Shown here: positions 6,181 to 57,923 of the stretch, one piece after another
Position numbering within the stretch: the stretch's first letter is position 1
How the letters are laid out: each line of letters starts with the position of its first letter
Assembly (NCBI RefSeq): GCF_004322395.1
Contig: NZ_SCTW01000143.1
Span: 1-64,000, forward strand
Direction of reading: 5' to 3'
Origin: Methylobacter sp.
GTDB lineage: Bacteria > Pseudomonadota > Gammaproteobacteria > Methylococcales > Methylomonadaceae
Length of the DNA: 64,000 bases
The notes under the pieces: generated by a model
The model's input: the letters and a program-made list of their open reading frames with translations, nothing else
Databases searched by the model: none
What the model was told of the DNA's origin: nothing
Program-made: the position numbers and the translations under genes

Positions 6181-8421
6181 ATGGCTTCCCTTTTCCGATT
6201 CGCCCTATCCGGCTGCATAGCGCTATTTCTGCTCAATGGCTGCACCGAGAAGCATCTGACTCCCTATACACCTCATAAAAAGGAGTCCTACACGGTGCGC
6301 GGCCATAATTACACATTCGCCATTTACAACAGCTCCCACCGCCTGTTGACCCACCCGATCGAGGATTTGCTGGTCGAGATGAAGTGGCGGAAAACGCTCG
6401 ATCAGCCTCCCATCAGCGACATTTATCTGATCTCTCACGGCTGGAATTACACCTTGCCGCTGGCCATCGCCAATTACCATAATTACATAGAACGGATCGA
6501 CAAGTTCATGAAGGACGGCAAACCGCTCGCCACCTTTCAGCCATATTTCATCTTTGTAACGTGGACATCGACAACTCGTCCGATCACCAGTATGGCCGAG
6601 GCCATACTGCCGTTCGGGATGGATTCGGCCGTAAAGCCGGTCACTAACCTTATCGATAAGGTCCCGTTGCACATGCTCTCTGCCTGGAAACAAAGCTTGA
6701 ATACGGCGCAAACTGCATTGGGGCCGCAGTATCCGAACGATTATCTGGATAAGGATTGGAAAGACAGCCCTTATGGTTATTATGACACCAACTTGATTCA
6801 AGACGCCGACGCGATAATGGGCGAGGATGTCCCGGTGTCGGCGCTGATTTACCGTTTAATTAAACAAAAGCAAATCCCTCCCATAACATCCGGAACAACG
6901 TTGAAAAAGAGGAAAATGGCGGATCAGGCAGATGGCGACGAAGCAAATAAATCGGTGCCGGACTCCCGTTGCGTGAAACCCGATCCGCTGAATCCGGATG
7001 ATGATGTCTGCGTTTCGTTAGCAAAGACTAAATTACATCTTATTGGGCATAGCTATGGCGCTAAACTGGTGACGATGGCCGGCATGGAAGCGGTAAGACG
7101 ATGGATGTTGGAATCCATTGCAGCAAATCCCAAACAATTTAGTCACCTAGCCAGTTGCAACCAGACCAAGAAAGGTTCGAGCGAATTATTGAAAGATCTG
7201 GCAGTGTGCGACCTTACGGGGCACCGCAAGCCATTCGGAGAACTGGAGGTTGCGTTTAGCGGGCTGCATAAACCGCTCTTATTAAAGGAATGGTACGATA
7301 AAACCACAGAAACACCGATTAATTCGCTGGTGTTGTTTAACCCGGCCTTCCATCCCGGCGAATTATCGTATCCTGTGGATGTTGTTAATTTCGCACCGAC
7401 ACAGACGCTCAGGTTCATCTCCCGTAAAGCCATCGTTTACTCGACCTATGACTATGCGAATGGTGCTTTATTCAGCTTGCGCGAGAATATCCTGAATACT
7501 CAAATTACTCAAATCGGGAATCAGGCAAGCAAAAAACTGGATCAGTTAAGTTATCAAAATAATAATCAGTGGTTGAAGCTGCCGGTAAATCTGTTGCAGT
7601 TAGCGATCGCCCCTGTGGATCTCGGCTATAGTCTCATTTATACCCATGTCGGACTTGTATTTTATAGCCTGGCCAATCTACCGTGGGATTTCTGGCATCA
7701 TGTCCAGACCGGTACGCTGGGCGGTCTTTATCTGCCCCCATCCGGTTCGAGCTTCGGCTGGCAAAGCGTCGCCAAAGGAACCGCCAATGCGGTGGATTAT
7801 TTCTTGCCGACCAACATGTTATATCGGAACGAATCCGAGCAAGGCTTGTTCCGCCTGAACAAGCCGGGTTTGGGCAAAACCGGTCTGAACCATTTGGCCG
7901 AAGGGCGATGGATAGGAGGGAATTTATGGGGACTTGAGGATTATTATTCCTTAAGGGAACCGTTCGGTGAGGTTGAGTGTATCGCTAACAAAAATCCAAT
8001 CGTTTGCCAGAAAGCGCTGATCGATTTAAAAAGCCTAAAAAAACCGCCTTTTGCACCCAATATAGGTCCCTCCACTTTCAGCCGATTTAGCGCCGAACCT
8101 TTTGTTGCGAACATGCCGACGGATTTCAGTTCCGGCGAAGCCTTATGGCAAAGGGAAAAATTCTACTCCTTCGATGCCGGATACGTTTACGACTCCCATA
8201 CTCCTCTAATGGGCGCGCATAGCGACTTACGAAAACCCGAACTGCCGGATCAAGAAAATTGTCAGAACGAATCTTCTGATTGCGAAGAGGTGGAAAAACG
8301 CGATTACACGTTTAATTTTGTATTCAACTTTACCCAAACCAATTTTGAGCGCAAATTTTGCGAGTTGAATCCCAGAGAAATAGAGGAGTTTGGGGTTGTT
8401 TGCGCTTACAGGAAATCCTGA
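6181..8421 (+). CDS. Large lipoprotein with alpha/beta-hydrolase motif
   Basis: Start placed at 6181 because it follows aagaaggag and opens a lipoprotein signal (MASLFRFALSGCIALFLLNGC). An in-frame extension to 6073 runs through a REP-like palindrome and is unlikely. The mature protein of about 730 residues contains an early ISDIYLISHGWNYT block (oxyanion/strand region of an alpha/beta hydrolase) and a nucleophile elbow KLHLIGHSYGAKLV near residue 285, the GxSxG serine motif. The C-terminal half is not recognisable. It probably acts as an outer-membrane or periplasmic esterase/lipase. The reading frame terminates inside a duplicated fragment of the aconitase gene, so the last few residues may not be native. 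The gene looks inserted between two copies of the aconitase tail. Confidence 0.82.
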   Translation: MASLFRFALSGCIALFLLNGCTEKHLTPYTPHKKESYTVRGHNYTFAIYNSSHRLLTHPIEDLLVEMKWRKTLDQPPISDIYLISHGWNYTLPLAIANYHNYIERIDKFMKDGKPLATFQPYFIFVTWTSTTRPITSMAEAILPFGMDSAVKPVTNLIDKVPLHMLSAWKQSLNTAQTALGPQYPNDYLDKDWKDSPYGYYDTNLIQDADAIMGEDVPVSALIYRLIKQKQIPPITSGTTLKKRKMADQADGDEANKSVPDSRCVKPDPLNPDDDVCVSLAKTKLHLIGHSYGAKLVTMAGMEAVRRWMLESIAANPKQFSHLASCNQTKKGSSELLKDLAVCDLTGHRKPFGELEVAFSGLHKPLLLKEWYDKTTETPINSLVLFNPAFHPGELSYPVDVVNFAPTQTLRFISRKAIVYSTYDYANGALFSLRENILNTQITQIGNQASKKLDQLSYQNNNQWLKLPVNLLQLAIAPVDLGYSLIYTHVGLVFYSLANLPWDFWHHVQTGTLGGLYLPPSGSSFGWQSVAKGTANAVDYFLPTNMLYRNESEQGLFRLNKPGLGKTGLNHLAEGRWIGGNLWGLEDYYSLREPFGEVECIANKNPIVCQKALIDLKSLKKPPFAPNIGPSTFSRFSAEPFVANMPTDFSSGEALWQREKFYSFDAGYVYDSHTPLMGAHSDLRKPELPDQENCQNESSDCEEVEKRDYTFNFVFNFTQTNFERKFCELNPREIEEFGVVCAYRKS

Positions 8422-51038: not shown

Positions 51039-51196
51039 CACCACGAAGACACGAAGGACACGAAGATTTATTTCTTCGTGTCCTTCGTGTCTCGGCAATT
51101 GCTCCTGCATTGCTCTACCTCGGCAACCGCTCCATGCGTTGCTCTACCTCCTGCATCCTTGCAGTCGTCCTGTATCCATACAGTCGTTCGTGGTGA
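51039..51196. repeat. Composite palindromic repeat between folP and the C1 cluster
   Basis: Inner hairpin: CACGAAGACACGAAGGACAC... (51043-51066) against CTTCGTGTCCTTCGTGTCT (51075-51093). Outer partners ATCACCACGAA (51039) and TTCGTGGTGAA (51186) enclose a GGCAATTGCTCCTGCATTGC-type segment. It looks like one repeat inserted into an arm of another. The divergent folP and flavoprotein promoters must lie in or beside it. Confidence 0.8.
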
Positions 51197-51364: not shown

Positions 51365-51901
51365 ATGGATAAGCCACGATTAGCCTGGGCCATTACCGGC
51401 TCCGGCCATTATATAGAAGAATGCCTGGACTTCCTGCTGACTCTGGATGATATTGATCTGTATTTAAGTCAGGCCGGAGAAGAAGTTTTAAAAATGTACG
51501 GAATTAATCTCGACGACGTCCGCAAAAAAATGCCGGTATACCGCGACAAAGCCGCTTCAGCGCCGCCGGTGGGACATTTTTACAAAGGCTATTACCATAC
51601 TTTTGTAATGGCGCCGACCACGTCGAACACGGTTGCAAAATGCGTACTGGGCATTGCCGACTCGCTGGTAACCAATCTTTATTCCCAAGCCGGGAAATGC
51701 AGGGTTCCGAGCATTGTTTACCCTTGCGACATAGCCCCGGAAATGGAAACCACTGCGCCGGGAGGAAAAGTCATGGTTTATCCCCGTAAAATCGATCTTG
51801 AAGGCACAACCAAATTACGCGCATTTGAATACACAAGCGTCGTTGAAAGTGTCGATGAATTGATTGCCACCGTTAAAGAACGGCTAAGATCGTTAACATG
51901 A
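51365..51901 (+). CDS. Archaeoflavoprotein AfpA / dihydromethanopterin reductase-like flavoprotein
   Basis: 178 residues of the flavoprotein (HFCD) fold. LAWAITGSGHYIEECLDFLL is the N-terminal flavin-phosphate site, FVMAPTTSNTVAKCVLGIAD the conserved MAPxSxNT block, and IVYPCDIAPEMETTAPGG carries a probable Fe-S/flavin Cys. Homologues in methylotrophs and methanogens (AfpA, DmrB) handle low-potential electrons or reduce dihydromethanopterin. First gene of a tightly coupled cluster; it overlaps the next by ATGA. Confidence 0.86.
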   Translation: MDKPRLAWAITGSGHYIEECLDFLLTLDDIDLYLSQAGEEVLKMYGINLDDVRKKMPVYRDKAASAPPVGHFYKGYYHTFVMAPTTSNTVAKCVLGIADSLVTNLYSQAGKCRVPSIVYPCDIAPEMETTAPGGKVMVYPRKIDLEGTTKLRAFEYTSVVESVDELIATVKERLRSLT

Positions 51902-53286
51902 GCGAACATATCCTCTTTCTTACCGGCAGGTTGGCGGAAAAACAGCTGCATAGCATCCTTGAAAAAATGCAGCCCGAATTCATCTATACCGTGCATGAAT
52001 TGGGTCTTAAGGTCGCAGCCTTAATGACCGCCGACATGATAGGCCGCCGCCTGACCGACACTTTCGGCGCCGATCGCATACTGGTACCCGGACGCTGCCG
52101 CGGCGACTTGGAAGCCTTATCCAAAGACATGGGCCTGCCTATTGAACGCGGCCCGGAAGAACTCAAGGACTTGCCGATGTTCTTCGGCCAAGCCGCGCAC
52201 AAAATCGATTTAAACAACTACAGCGTCAAAATCTTTGCCGAAATCGTCGATGCGCCCAATATCAGCGTTGAGGAAGCCGTTCAACGCGCCTACTACTATA
52301 AGCAAAACGGCGCCGATGTGATCGATATAGGCTGCCTGCCGAGCACCGATTTTCCGCATATGGAAGACATCATTCGCACCTTGAAACAGGAAGGCTTTAC
52401 CGTCAGCATCGACTCGCTTGAAGCAAACGATTTGCTCAGAGGCGGCAAAGCGGGCGCCGATTACATGCTCAGCCTGCACGAAAGCACATTATGGGTTGCC
52501 GATGAAGTCGCGGCGACGCCGATTCTAATCCCGGAAAAGCATGAAGATTTGGCTTCGCTGGATCGAGCCATCAACGCCATGCAAGCAAAAAACCGCAGCT
52601 TTATCGTCGATCCTATTTTAGATCCGCTGCATTTTGGCTTCACGCAGTCCATTGTGCGTTATCATGAAGTCAGGAAGAACCATCCCGATATTGAAATGAT
52701 GCTCGGCGTCGGCAATATCACCGAACTGACCCATGCCGACACTATGGGCATGAATGCGCTGCTGCTGGGCATCTGCTCGGAACTAAACATCAACAGCATT
52801 TTGGCAACCCAGGTCAGCAAACATGCCTGCCGGGCAGTCAAAGAAGCCGATCTGGCGCGCCGCATCATGTTTGCCGCAAAAGAGCATGACATGCTGCCCA
52901 AACATATCGATCCCGGCTTAATGGCCTTGCATGAAACCTCACCCTTCCCTTATAGTTTGGAAGAAATCAAGGAACTGGCAGGCCAAATCAAAGACCCCAG
53001 CTACCGCGTTCAAATCAGCGCCGAAGGCGTACATATTTTCAACCGCGACGGCATACACAGCGCCACCGATCCATTCGACCTGTTTCCGAATCTGCATGTT
53101 GAAAACGACGGCGGACATGCTTTTTATCTCGGTGTTGAGCTGGCCCGCGCTGAAATAGCTTGGCAACTGGGTAAACGCTATACCCAGGACCAAGCATTGC
53201 AATGGGGTTGCGCAACCGACAGCGCAGAATCTACCGTTGACCTGCATACTTTTAAACCGGCCGGAACCACACTAAAAAAACATTAA
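51898..53286 (+). CDS. DUF6513 / dihydropteroate synthase-related protein of the H4MPT pathway
   Basis: 462 residues. An N-terminal domain (HILFLTGRLAEKQLHSILEK ... IGRRLTDTFGADRILVPGRC) precedes a DHPS-like TIM barrel: YKQNGADVIDIGCLPSTDFP, FTVSIDSLEANDLLRGGKAG, FIVDPILDPLHFGF, MMLGVGNITELTHADTMGMN. The family (TIGR00284) is restricted to methylotrophs and methanogens and is thought to join the pterin to an aniline moiety or a similar step of tetrahydromethanopterin assembly. That role is by family, not shown here. Confidence 0.88.
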   Translation: MSEHILFLTGRLAEKQLHSILEKMQPEFIYTVHELGLKVAALMTADMIGRRLTDTFGADRILVPGRCRGDLEALSKDMGLPIERGPEELKDLPMFFGQAAHKIDLNNYSVKIFAEIVDAPNISVEEAVQRAYYYKQNGADVIDIGCLPSTDFPHMEDIIRTLKQEGFTVSIDSLEANDLLRGGKAGADYMLSLHESTLWVADEVAATPILIPEKHEDLASLDRAINAMQAKNRSFIVDPILDPLHFGFTQSIVRYHEVRKNHPDIEMMLGVGNITELTHADTMGMNALLLGICSELNINSILATQVSKHACRAVKEADLARRIMFAAKEHDMLPKHIDPGLMALHETSPFPYSLEEIKELAGQIKDPSYRVQISAEGVHIFNRDGIHSATDPFDLFPNLHVENDGGHAFYLGVELARAEIAWQLGKRYTQDQALQWGCATDSAESTVDLHTFKPAGTTLKKH

Positions 53287-53293
53287 AACACTA

Positions 53294-54106
53294 ATGATCC
53301 AAGAAACCATAGTCATCACACAAAACAGTTCAGGTCTGGCGCATATTGCACCTATGGGCATTCATGTTATCGCCAGGGATGGTGTGTATGCCACAAGCCA
53401 GTCTGGAACTGGCGTGGCGACCGCCAAGCATGGTGTGTATGCCGAGAACCTGTCGGGAACAGGTTCGGCAATCGCCGCCGCAAGCCAGCCGGGAGCTGGC
53501 GCGGCGACCGAAGAAACACCGGACGAATTCATCATCCTGCCGTTTCGGCCCTCAACCACACTGAACAACCTGCTGGAAAGTAAAACCGCGGTCATCAACT
53601 ATTGCGATGACGTACGAGTCTTTGCCGGATGCCTGACCGGGCGGCGCGACTGGCCATTAAAACCGGCGGAAAAAATAACCGGTCAGGTGCTCAGCTGTGC
53701 GTTAGCTCACACCGAAGTCGAACTGATCCGAGTTGAAGACGACGAGATCCGGCCTAAATTATTCTGTAAAGCCGTACACACCGCCAATCATGCACCTTTT
53801 AAAGGTTTTAACCGAGCCCAATATTCGGTGCTGGAAGCGGCAATTTTAGTCAGCCGGTTAAACATGATTTCGCTGGAAAAAATACAATCGGAAATCGACT
53901 ATCTGCGTATCGGCCTGGAGAAAACCGCCGGGGACAAAGAGCTGGAAGCCTGGGGTTGGTTGATGACCGTCATCGAAAATTATATCGCCGGGGATGATAT
54001 GTTTCCCGAAAACTTGCCGGAAACAGGTTCTGCAATTGCCATAGATGGCGTATATGCTGCAAGCCGGCCGGGAGCAGACGCGTCAAAGACTGAGATCATT
54101 GCATGA
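53294..54106 (+). CDS. DUF447 flavin-reductase-like protein with repeat-derived insertions
   Basis: 270 residues. Core DUF447 blocks: LAHIAPMGIHVIARDG, FIILPFRPSTTLNNLLES, YCDDVRVFAGCLTGRRDWPL, FKGFNRAQYSVLEAAILVSR. The family accompanies H4MPT/methanofuran genes and resembles split-barrel flavoproteins. About 48 residues (DGVYATSQSGTGVATAKHGV ... AASQPGAGAATEE) interrupt the first strand region, and a similar tail (NLPETGSAIAIDGVYAASRP) is appended. Both are translated from palindromic REP-like DNA. Overlaps mfnB by ATGA. Confidence 0.85.
   Translation: MIQETIVITQNSSGLAHIAPMGIHVIARDGVYATSQSGTGVATAKHGVYAENLSGTGSAIAAASQPGAGAATEETPDEFIILPFRPSTTLNNLLESKTAVINYCDDVRVFAGCLTGRRDWPLKPAEKITGQVLSCALAHTEVELIRVEDDEIRPKLFCKAVHTANHAPFKGFNRAQYSVLEAAILVSRLNMISLEKIQSEIDYLRIGLEKTAGDKELEAWGWLMTVIENYIAGDDMFPENLPETGSAIAIDGVYAASRPGADASKTEIIA
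53374..53520 (+). repeat. In-frame REP-like repeat inside the DUF447 gene
   Basis: Three units of about 48 bp, each with GGTGTGTATGC or a GCAAGCC lead and a small palindrome: GCCAGTCTGGAACTGGC, AACCTGTCGGGAACAGGTT, GCCAGCCGGGAGCTGGC. A fourth, diverged copy is at about 54010-54085. Every unit keeps the reading frame. The palindromes resemble the AAGCTGGAGCTT REP core elsewhere in the window. Confidence 0.8.
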
Positions 54107-55152
54107 CCGGAATGCTCGCCAGCGTTAACAGTATAGAAGAAGCTTTATTGGCATTGGCCGCGAACGTCGATATTATTGACTTAAAACAGCCGGCCTTAGG
54201 CGCTTTGGGCGCGCTTGACACTGACTTGGTCAAAAACATTGTCGATGCAATTGACGGCCGCCGTCCGGTCAGCGCAACCGTTGGCGACCTGCCGATGCAG
54301 CCTGAAATTGTTTACTCGGCAGTCAAAGCCATGGCCGAAACCGGCGTCGATTATATAAAAATCGGCTTTTTTCCCGGCGGCGACTGGCAGGGAACTATTG
54401 AAAAACTTGCTGAGCTCCCACGAACAATAAACTTAATAGCCGTATTATTCGCCGATACCCAACCGGATTTTGCCCCCATAGATTCCCTTAAACATATTGG
54501 TTTCAAAGGCGTCATGCTCGACACCATGAACAAAAGCAACGGCTCTTTGACTCAAATCCTGACAAAGGCCGACATAGCGCAATTTGTCAGACTGGCAAAA
54601 GACCGGTCTATGCTCTGCGGGCTGGCCGGTTCGCTCAAACTGGAAGACATAACCGGACTGATGCCTTACCAGCCTGATTATCTGGGCTTTAGAGGCGCAT
54701 TATGTCTGGAACACAACAGAACAGCGCAATTAGGTAGGGAGTTAATTATGCAAATAAAACAGGCTATAGACGATCAAAACCTGCTCCAGTCAGAAAGTAC
54801 TGAGAACCGTGTTTTGATTGCAGATGATAGTGAAATAAACCAATTGATACTGGCTAACATGCTTGAACTTAACGGCTACACCGTTGACGCCGCAGCCGAC
54901 GGTGCGGAAGCCTTGCAATTGATCGGTGAAAATCACTATAAATTCGCACTTATCGACATTAATATGCCGGTCATGTCGGGACTGGAGATGATAAAAATCT
55001 TAAGAACCCAACATAGCCCGCTAAAAGTTGCCGCCATCAGCACTTTTGTTGACGACCATCAAAAAATTGAAGCGCTAACCGCCGGGTTTGATTACTGCTT
55101 AACCAGACCGATTGATGAAGAGCAATTGATGGCGCTGATAAATCTACGCTAG
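54103..55152 (+). CDS. mfnB: (5-formylfuran-3-yl)methyl phosphate synthase MfnB fused to a receiver domain
   Basis: 349 residues. Residues 1-225 form the MfnB/DUF556 barrel: MLASVNSIEEALLAL, VDIIDLKQPALGALGALD (Schiff-base Lys), TGVDYIKIGFFPGGDW, GFKGVMLDTMNK, LCGLAGSLKLEDI and PDYLGFRGALC. It makes the furan precursor of methanofuran from glyceraldehyde 3-phosphate. Residues 235-349 are a complete response-regulator receiver: VLIADDSEINQLILANMLEL, phospho-Asp in ALIDINMPVMSG, Thr/Ser in AAISTFVDD, Lys position replaced by Arg in CLTRPIDEE. Such a fusion is not usual for MfnB. Last gene of the cluster. Confidence 0.92.
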   Translation: MTGMLASVNSIEEALLALAANVDIIDLKQPALGALGALDTDLVKNIVDAIDGRRPVSATVGDLPMQPEIVYSAVKAMAETGVDYIKIGFFPGGDWQGTIEKLAELPRTINLIAVLFADTQPDFAPIDSLKHIGFKGVMLDTMNKSNGSLTQILTKADIAQFVRLAKDRSMLCGLAGSLKLEDITGLMPYQPDYLGFRGALCLEHNRTAQLGRELIMQIKQAIDDQNLLQSESTENRVLIADDSEINQLILANMLELNGYTVDAAADGAEALQLIGENHYKFALIDINMPVMSGLEMIKILRTQHSPLKVAAISTFVDDHQKIEALTAGFDYCLTRPIDEEQLMALINLR

Positions 55153-56291: not shown

Positions 56292-57923
56292 ATGAATGAC
56301 TCTTCATCCAACACTGAAAAGCCGATTTTGTTTGTACGCAATCCACAGTTGGATCAGATGCGAGATCCACTCCCTGCATCGTGGAATAAAGAACTGACGC
56401 CGAAAGAGACTTCGGCGGATTCGGAGATCAATCTTGCTCAATTAATTGACTTTAGCCAATTAAATGATGTGTTTGCAAGCTACCTGGAAGTTATCGGTTT
56501 GCCTGTCTCGATTATCGATTTTAACGGCCATGTCTTAGCTTCCTCAAATTGGCAGCGTATATGTATTGAATTTCATCGTGCTAATCAAGGCACATTAATC
56601 CGTTGCCTGGAAAGTGACACAAACCTTTCGCGTCAAATGCAAGAAGGCAAGGATTACGCAATCTATCGCTGTCGAAACGGACTGACCGATTGTGCTTCTC
56701 CGATCGTTATTGAAGGACAGCACATCGCCAATCTATTCATTGGCCAGTTTTTCCTTAAGCATCCCGACCATAAAGAGTTTGAAGCTCAATGTGCCGAGTT
56801 CGGTTTTGACCATGACGCTTATTTCCAGGCTCTGGCAGAAGTTCCGATTGTTGAAGAACAAAAAATTCCTCATATCCTGAAAATGCTTGTGGGCTTTGCT
56901 AACCAGATTGCGAAACAAAGTCTTGCCGAGCATCGAGCCAGAGTTGCCTATGAGAGTGTTGAGAAACAGGTTATCGAGCGTACCAGGCAACTGATAGAAA
57001 AGGAACTGAAATACAGGCAGTTGTTTGAAAATATGAATAACTGCGTCGCTGTGTATACCGCAGTTGATGATGGGGAAGACTTCATCTTTGTAGACTTCAA
57101 CCATGCTGCCGAGTTGCTGGAACAAAAATCACGCCAAGAGGTCATAGGTAAACGGCTTACGGAATGCTTTCCCGGAATCAAGGAACTCGGGTTGTTAACA
57201 GCATTGCAACGAGTTTGGAAAACCGGTGAGCCGGAACACTTTCCTATCTCGTCATATCGTAACAATCGTATTTCAGGATGGCGGGACAACCGTTTCTATC
57301 GCTTGCTCTCAGGAGAAGTGGTTGCCATCTATGAAGACATTACTGCCCAGAAACAAGCCGAGGAAGAAATCTACAATCTGGCTTATTTTGACCCGCTTAC
57401 CCAATTGCCTAACCGGCGCCTGCTCAACGACCGATTGAGTCAGGCTATGGCAGCAAGCAAACGTAGCGGTTGCTATGGCGCAGTGATGTTTCTTGATCTG
57501 GATAACTTCAAACCGCTGAACGACAAACATGGACACGGCGTAGGCGATTTACTGCTTATCGAAGTCGCTAAACGCCTGAAAGAATGTGTGCGCGAAATGG
57601 ATACTGTAGCGCGTTTCGGGGGAGATGAGTTTGTAGTGATGCTTAATGAGCTTGATGTCGATAAAGCCGAGTCCTATGCACAAGCTCGTATCGTTGCGGA
57701 AAAAATTCTCACGACCTTGTCCGAACCCTACCTACTGGCTATCAAAAACGATGAGCGTGCCGATACAATAATCGAACATCATTGCACTGCAAGTATTGGC
57801 ATTACGTTGTTTATCCATCACGACGAAAACCAAGTTGACGTTATCAAGTTGGCTGACGTAGCAATGTATCAGGCAAAAGATGCCGGGCGAAATTTAATAT
57901 GCTTTTATGATCAGAAAGCTTGA
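56292..57923 (+). CDS. PocR-PAS-GGDEF diguanylate cyclase
   Basis: 543 residues. PocR sensory domain (about 50-210) with the Cys-containing elements RCLESD and CRNGLTDCASPIVIEGQHIA; then a PAS domain (YRQLFENMNNCVAVYTAVDD), then GGDEF at about residue 443 (ARFGGDEFVVML), with RxxD product-inhibition site REMD five residues before. PocR domains bind small hydrocarbon derivatives such as propanediol, so an alcohol or C1 compound is a plausible ligand (inference). It makes c-di-GMP. Monocistronic. Confidence 0.92.
   Translation: MNDSSSNTEKPILFVRNPQLDQMRDPLPASWNKELTPKETSADSEINLAQLIDFSQLNDVFASYLEVIGLPVSIIDFNGHVLASSNWQRICIEFHRANQGTLIRCLESDTNLSRQMQEGKDYAIYRCRNGLTDCASPIVIEGQHIANLFIGQFFLKHPDHKEFEAQCAEFGFDHDAYFQALAEVPIVEEQKIPHILKMLVGFANQIAKQSLAEHRARVAYESVEKQVIERTRQLIEKELKYRQLFENMNNCVAVYTAVDDGEDFIFVDFNHAAELLEQKSRQEVIGKRLTECFPGIKELGLLTALQRVWKTGEPEHFPISSYRNNRISGWRDNRFYRLLSGEVVAIYEDITAQKQAEEEIYNLAYFDPLTQLPNRRLLNDRLSQAMAASKRSGCYGAVMFLDLDNFKPLNDKHGHGVGDLLLIEVAKRLKECVREMDTVARFGGDEFVVMLNELDVDKAESYAQARIVAEKILTTLSEPYLLAIKNDERADTIIEHHCTASIGITLFIHHDENQVDVIKLADVAMYQAKDAGRNLICFYDQKA

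Follow-up and report, generated by a model that had tools for sequence, protein, structure and literature searches.

Architecture of the mfnB locus

The window analysed here is a stretch of 64,000 nucleotides from Methylobacter sp. (contig NZ_SCTW01000143.1), and it holds a cluster of cofactor genes on the forward strand. A flavoprotein gene (51365..51901, + strand), whose closest models are dihydromethanopterin reductase and AfpA, both below their cut-offs, is followed by a DUF6513/dihydropteroate-synthase-like gene (51898..53286, +; TIGR00284, below its cut-off) and by a DUF447 gene (53294..54106, +). Directly downstream and in the same direction lies mfnB-REC, a fusion gene coding for 349 amino acids (54103..55152, +), whose first 4 nt coincide with the last 4 nt of the DUF447 gene. 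The surroundings of these genes also showed several minor features. Just upstream of the cluster, a 29-base unit is repeated in tandem about twice, with imperfect copies (51091-51150), and downstream, on the same strand, positions 56292-57923 encode a protein with a PocR sensory domain, a PAS domain and a GGDEF domain. The DUF447 gene carries short in-frame repeats of the type 'DGVYA...' (53340-53450 and 54020-54090), and part of the segment 53980-54102 has 8 further partial matches in the genome. At another mfnB locus (L093, about 6390-6490), MfnB contains a 30-residue in-frame insert that reads like the opposite strand of this element. In its behaviour, the 'DGVYA' element resembles an interspersed element inserting in frame into protein genes.

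MfnB is the enzyme that starts methanofuran synthesis. The frame at 54103-55152 is open over its 349 codons, with no internal stop, and represents the sole PF04476 match in the genome (G000). Its first domain (4HFCP_synth, PF04476; residues 4-218, 54112..54756, +) was recognized by Pfam with an E value of 1.2e-68 and a score of 231.8 bits against a cut-off of 22.4, and it covers positions 1-227 of the 228 of the profile, so that the domain is full-length. The best-scoring NCBIfam model, the PRK02227.1-5 equivalog NF002576, reached 282.4 bits, just below its 297-bit cut-off. Residues D26, K28, K86, D118, D140 and K144 are identical to the aligned residues of the solved MJ1099 protein. We take these six residues to be catalytic, and Lys28 (54184..54186, +), which aligns with the corresponding Lys of MJ1099, to be the one that forms the Schiff base. 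The MfnB chemistry of the fused protein is presumably unaltered. The second domain is a receiver (residues 237-346, 54811..55140, +; Pfam Response_reg, E 2.5e-25, 89.2 bits against a cut-off of 30.2). Between the two lie the end of the MfnB C-terminal helix and a linker (54757..54810, +), and the fusion junction probably falls about here, a placement made by similarity alone, as the similarity to kinase receivers starts at about this segment. In the AlphaFold2 model, which was built from 39 aligned sequences, the C-terminal helix of MfnB (residues 212-230) runs into the linker and the next strand starts from residue 236. The model predicts two well-formed domains (mean pLDDT 91.4, pTM 0.70); a Foldseek search with it matched the barrel to MJ1099 (4rc1, 4u9p) and the remainder to CheY-like receivers.

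These data bear out the sequence-only reading, which had described a complete MfnB directly followed by a receiver in a single frame, with an acidic pair, a phospho-accepting Asp, a Thr/Ser position and an Arg in place of the conserved Lys. We located these residues at D241/D242, at D285 (54955..54957, +), at Ser313 and at Arg335 (55105..55107, +), respectively. A stop codon between the domains was also looked for; the frame proved open across the linker and the same join was found in 12 assemblies, including named-strain records, which refutes the notion that an assembly or frameshift artefact had united two genes. The barrel and its aligned active-site residues are those of (5-formylfuran-3-yl)methyl phosphate synthase (MJ1099; Orf22 in Methylorubrum extorquens). 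However, the solved chain of MJ1099 has 242 residues and one domain, and the fused protein adds the receiver. In the bacterial methylofuran cluster, MfnB is described as Orf22 (PMC8141765).

Distribution and phylogeny of the fusion

Every one of the 23 sampled genomes of the genus carries mfnB, and 12 of them carry the fusion (G000, G001, G006, G008, G009, G010, G011, G012, G013, G018, G019 and G021). Eleven of the fused proteins are full length, and that of G012 is cut by a contig end. The same architecture is found in records named M. tundripaludum SV96, M. tundripaludum OWC-G53F and Ca. M. oryzae KRF1, and the contigs matching mfnB loci stand mostly under Methylobacter. In four other genomes mfnB is followed by a hybrid kinase (G003, G014, G016 and G017), and in one by an orphan receiver (G004). 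Neither kinase nor receiver follows it in the remaining six (G005, G007, G015, G020, G022 and G002, the last of which keeps a relic). The locus of G003 (L096) lies on a short contig, where the kinase match comes in two pieces and reaches the contig end, and it yielded no receiver row; a 69% match to the end of the kinase is found on another contig of this genome.

Outside the genus, 190 of the 201 genomes that make up the family sample gave a PF04476 match. Among the matches listed there, no receiver was present in the frames of at least 330 aa (G193, G087, G057, G055 and G041) nor in the MfnB frames of G188, G052 and G028, a check that passed over some frames of about 290-300 aa (e.g. G105 and G223) and the weakest-scoring family matches. 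The phylum sample gave a match in 13 of 249 genomes, G000 included, and a receiver in 0 of the 11 MfnB frames examined among the 12 other carriers (G231 was left out). In other families of the phylum, MfnB-FolB fusions likewise bear an extra C-terminal domain; this one is dihydroneopterin-aldolase-like and not a receiver. Such fusions are confirmed by Pfam in L147 and L150 and indicated by tail similarity alone in L148 and L151, and in L147 an AA_kinase domain also lies in the same stop-to-stop frame. The sequence-only reading would have been undermined had the receiver-bearing MfnB been common and already described. In the frames examined it was found in one genus, and the literature searched contained no description of an MfnB with a receiver, which is weak evidence of absence as most subscription papers lay outside the search.

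We reconstructed the history of the locus from a tree of 35 rows, some of them partial, for which four proteins of the cluster were concatenated. Besides the fused rows, including the contig-truncated one (G012/L088), it comprises the mfnB loci L090-L111 and L113; G020, whose MfnB is 83% identical to that of L094, was left out. The 12 fused and 5 unfused rows form one clade of 17 (support 100/97). By parsimony applied by eye, this tree fits a single gain of the receiver followed by about two losses, one in L094 and one in the group L090-L093 (99/96). Support is lower for the loss in L094, where the relevant branches have 91/77 and one fork is open. Within the L090-L093 group, mfnB of L091 (G002) is still followed by a relic of the receiver, which is shortened and out of frame. 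The tree of the receivers themselves unites the 11 full-length fused ones in one clade (100/99), within which the nine that bear Arg at the Lys position form a clade of their own (98/99), and it leaves the sister kinase of the fused clade without firm placement. Since the receiver was lost in about two lineages, it appears to be dispensable in them.

The neighbouring hybrid kinase and the probable origin of the receiver

In several relatives that lack the fusion, mfnB is directly followed by a gene for a hybrid histidine kinase with a C-terminal receiver. These kinases share the kinase and receiver parts, and their sensor varies: the layout is NMT1-PAS-HisKA-HATPase-REC in L095, L098 and L101, with an NMT1/THI5-like sensor, and MASE1-HisKA-HATPase-REC in L110 and L113. 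The end of mfnB and the beginning of the kinase gene share 4 nt in L098 and L101. In L058, too, the sequence after mfnB gives a MASE1-type match, though a weak one (33%). Elsewhere in the genome that carries the window, a large protein (L159, 523-5100; G000:C53) shares 61% identity with the L095 kinase over the NMT1-PAS region and ends in GGDEF-EAL, so that this sensor type is paired there with a c-di-GMP output.

The closest receivers that we found for the fused domain are the C-terminal domains of these neighbouring kinases. Identity to the receivers of L095, L098, L101, L110 and L113 is 56-63% by tblastn and 51-60% over the alignment, and it is 61% to the orphan receiver of L097. In L097 the kinase is absent and the receiver persists as a separate frame; as its sister L101 retains the kinase (100/100), this represents a separate kinase loss. 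Recruitment of another receiver from the same genome was considered and rejected, because the other receivers of G000 reach 38% identity at most among the matches listed.

We also searched for the kinase itself. The kinase core and receiver of L095, used as a query, recovered itself in G017 and detected matches of 64-71% identity in the 5 further genomes that bear the kinase (6/6), and the next-best matches in these genomes were 40% identical or less. Among the fused, loss and orphan genomes (19 in all, several of which are 80-90% complete), no candidate scored among the matches to E 1e-60 exceeded 42% (0/19; 9 genomes had a match at this threshold and 10 had none); in the larger genomes, the scoring covered part of the initial candidates. 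A kinase merely relocated within these genomes was rejected on the same grounds.

The fused receiver is thus closest to the kinase receivers, it occupies the same gene position, and the kinase appears to be gone. That the kinase receivers are the closest found and that the kinase has no orthologue-like match in the 19 genomes searched argues for a deletion that began at the 3' end of mfnB and stopped in the linker ahead of the receiver; its length would be about 2.6 kb if the layout of L098 is taken and 3.7 kb with that of L095. On these comparisons, we consider it very probable that a single deletion joined mfnB to the receiver of the neighbouring kinase. The ancestor would have had mfnB followed by a gene for a hybrid histidine kinase of the NMT1-PAS-HisKA-HATPase-REC type. 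Some 2.6-3.7 kb would then have been deleted in frame, taking away the mfnB stop and the whole kinase up to the linker that precedes its receiver; by this single event, at the base of a Methylobacter clade, the receiver would have become the C-terminal domain of MfnB.

Changes in the receiver and their possible meaning

For the receiver alignment, the residue counts and the dN/dS analysis we used 11 of the 12 fused genes, leaving out the truncated L088; kinase receivers and MfnB were aligned separately. The acidic pair (DD), the phospho-acceptor position (D) and the Ser position are invariant in 17/17 alignment rows. The switch position (K-3) is Tyr in 6/6 kinase or orphan receivers, and Cys (10) or Ser (1) in 11/11 full-length fused proteins; in the window it is Cys332 (55096..55098, +). 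Positions 247, 260 and 296 separate the two sets likewise. Further changes are shared by the same 9 of the 11 fused proteins, in which Asn to Ser at DD+1, Ala to Thr at T+1, Tyr to Phe at T+2 and Lys to Arg at K occur all together. The two others, L060 and L089, retain Lys at K, Ala at T+1 and Tyr at T+2. This pattern suggests that the active site was altered in two steps, the switch Tyr changing first, and the surrounding shell and the Lys following in most lineages. Seven positions have no residue common to the Lys-type (8) and Arg-type (9) receivers. Four of the seven fall in a set of 11 active-site positions out of 114 (P 0.0015), or 3 of 6 when K, which defined the groups, is set aside (P 0.009); the set consists of landmark positions and their neighbours and was drawn up after the alignment had been seen.

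With Arg335 at K, the protein of the window lacks one of the five canonical receiver residues (DD, D, T/S, K). The term pseudo-receiver has been used for receivers in which any one of the five is absent, and Arg is given as a common replacement at K (PMC12632262). This term fits the Arg-type proteins and not L060 and L089. Cys332 also departs from the aromatic residue (Tyr/Phe) at K-3, a feature that is common in bacteria and not strictly defining. According to the same source, changes at DD, T or K need not abolish phosphorylation (PMC12632262). In CheY, the K109R protein is reported to be still phosphorylated with its response abolished, and K102R to block signalling in CsrR (PMC3203184). 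The T+1 residue is described as governing access to the phosphorylation site, where Thr or Ser would, in the case of a fungal receiver, likely retard phosphorylation, and K-3 as linking this site to the output face (PMC8510515).

The fused receiver is under purifying selection. The median dN/dS was 0.162 for the receiver and 0.152 for MfnB over 55 non-independent pairs of the 11 fused genes, with a median of 0.46 of synonymous sites differing. The median ratio of receiver to MfnB distance was 1.13 among fused proteins (55 pairs), 0.83 among kinases (10 pairs) and 1.36 between fused proteins and kinases (33 pairs). Relative to MfnB, the fused receiver thus evolves faster than its counterpart in the kinases, so that some relaxation is likely. 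Taken together, the low dN/dS and the raised distance ratio therefore point to a constraint that is strong yet eased or shifted.

What the receiver does on MfnB can be read in several ways. The one we place first, with about an even chance of being correct, is that it is a pseudo-receiver whose role does not depend on phosphorylation, that is, a module for interaction, assembly or stability. Without its kinase, the receiver would lose the aromatic switch first; the changes in the active-site shell and from Lys to Arg would come next in most of the species seen; and a folded module would be kept on MfnB, acting without phosphorylation. Against this reading, Asp285, the acidic pair and Ser313 would be unneeded by a purely structural domain and are nevertheless invariant. 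Also against it count the retention of Lys in L060 and L089, the loss in about two lineages and the faster relative evolution. These last two points, together with the decaying relic of L091 and the loss of Lys and of the switch residue, would agree with the receiver being a passenger, a useless leftover of the deletion whose sole requirement is a fold that does MfnB no harm. We regard this as unlikely, since purifying selection speaks against pure junk, with a dN/dS close to that of MfnB at a median synonymous difference of 0.46. Moreover, 12 of the clade's 17 rows retain the receiver even though a single stop codon would suffice to remove it, and its changes cluster at the active site while DD, D and Ser stay invariant.

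Phosphorylation-dependent control, or recruitment by a histidine kinase, had been proposed from the sequence of the window and has become less likely. It would require another histidine kinase to act on Asp285, with the receiver switching the activity or assembly of MfnB. The invariant acidic pair, Asp and Ser agree with such control, as do the two fused proteins with canonical K, T+1 and T+2 and the many receiver-bearing frames of the genome (58 matches, mfnB-REC included). In addition, receivers on metabolic enzymes are a known theme (PMC5847659), and the tolerance of phosphorylation to substitutions at K noted above also agrees with it. However, no orthologue-like kinase was found in the 19 genomes, the K-3 switch is lost in 11/11 proteins, K-to-R and T+1 Ala-to-Thr occur in 9/11, and the equivalent Lys-to-Arg proteins of CheY and CsrR gave no response (PMC3203184). 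As kinase, switch and Lys are lost, classical phospho-control is disfavoured in the Arg-type proteins, and overall we consider it improbable. We also consider it improbable that the receiver is a new, built-in regulator of methanofuran synthesis acting without phosphorylation, for example by sensing redox through the Cys that replaces the switch residue in 10 of the 11 full-length proteins, or by binding a ligand or partner. Our order of preference has the pseudo-receiver first, then the passenger and then phospho-control.

The pseudo-receiver proposed here differs from other domains of that name in that it retains the Asp, sits on a cofactor enzyme and has Lys-bearing fusions surviving beside it (L060 and L089). 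Compared with the mfnB-linked hybrid kinase of unfused Methylobacter (g1), Crenothrix and a further genus (g15), the fused protein has a similar receiver at the same gene position. However, it is without sensor, HisKA and HATPase, its switch position no longer bears Tyr, and in most of the fused proteins the Lys is replaced as well. Other receivers have been described on metabolic enzymes, and in archaea each of these has a narrow phyletic range (PMC5847659). The fusion described here resembles these response regulators with enzymatic outputs in joining a receiver to a metabolic enzyme and in its narrow phyletic spread. In contrast to them, the enzyme comes first, and the receiver, mostly without its Lys, was apparently taken from a neighbouring kinase by deletion.

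The locus thus presents a gene fusion that probably arose by deletion of the middle of a neighbour, and that equipped an enzyme of the cofactor pathway of formaldehyde oxidation with a signalling domain. The presumed ancestor kinase, an orphan receiver (L097), Lys-type fusions, Arg-type fusions and a relic (L091) coexist in one genus, and therefore the path between them is testable by ordinary biochemistry in organisms that are not pathogens. If the receiver has indeed become a regulator acting without phosphorylation, the surviving Lys-type and Arg-type fusions would show how a canonical receiver turns stepwise into a pseudo-receiver after the loss of its kinase.
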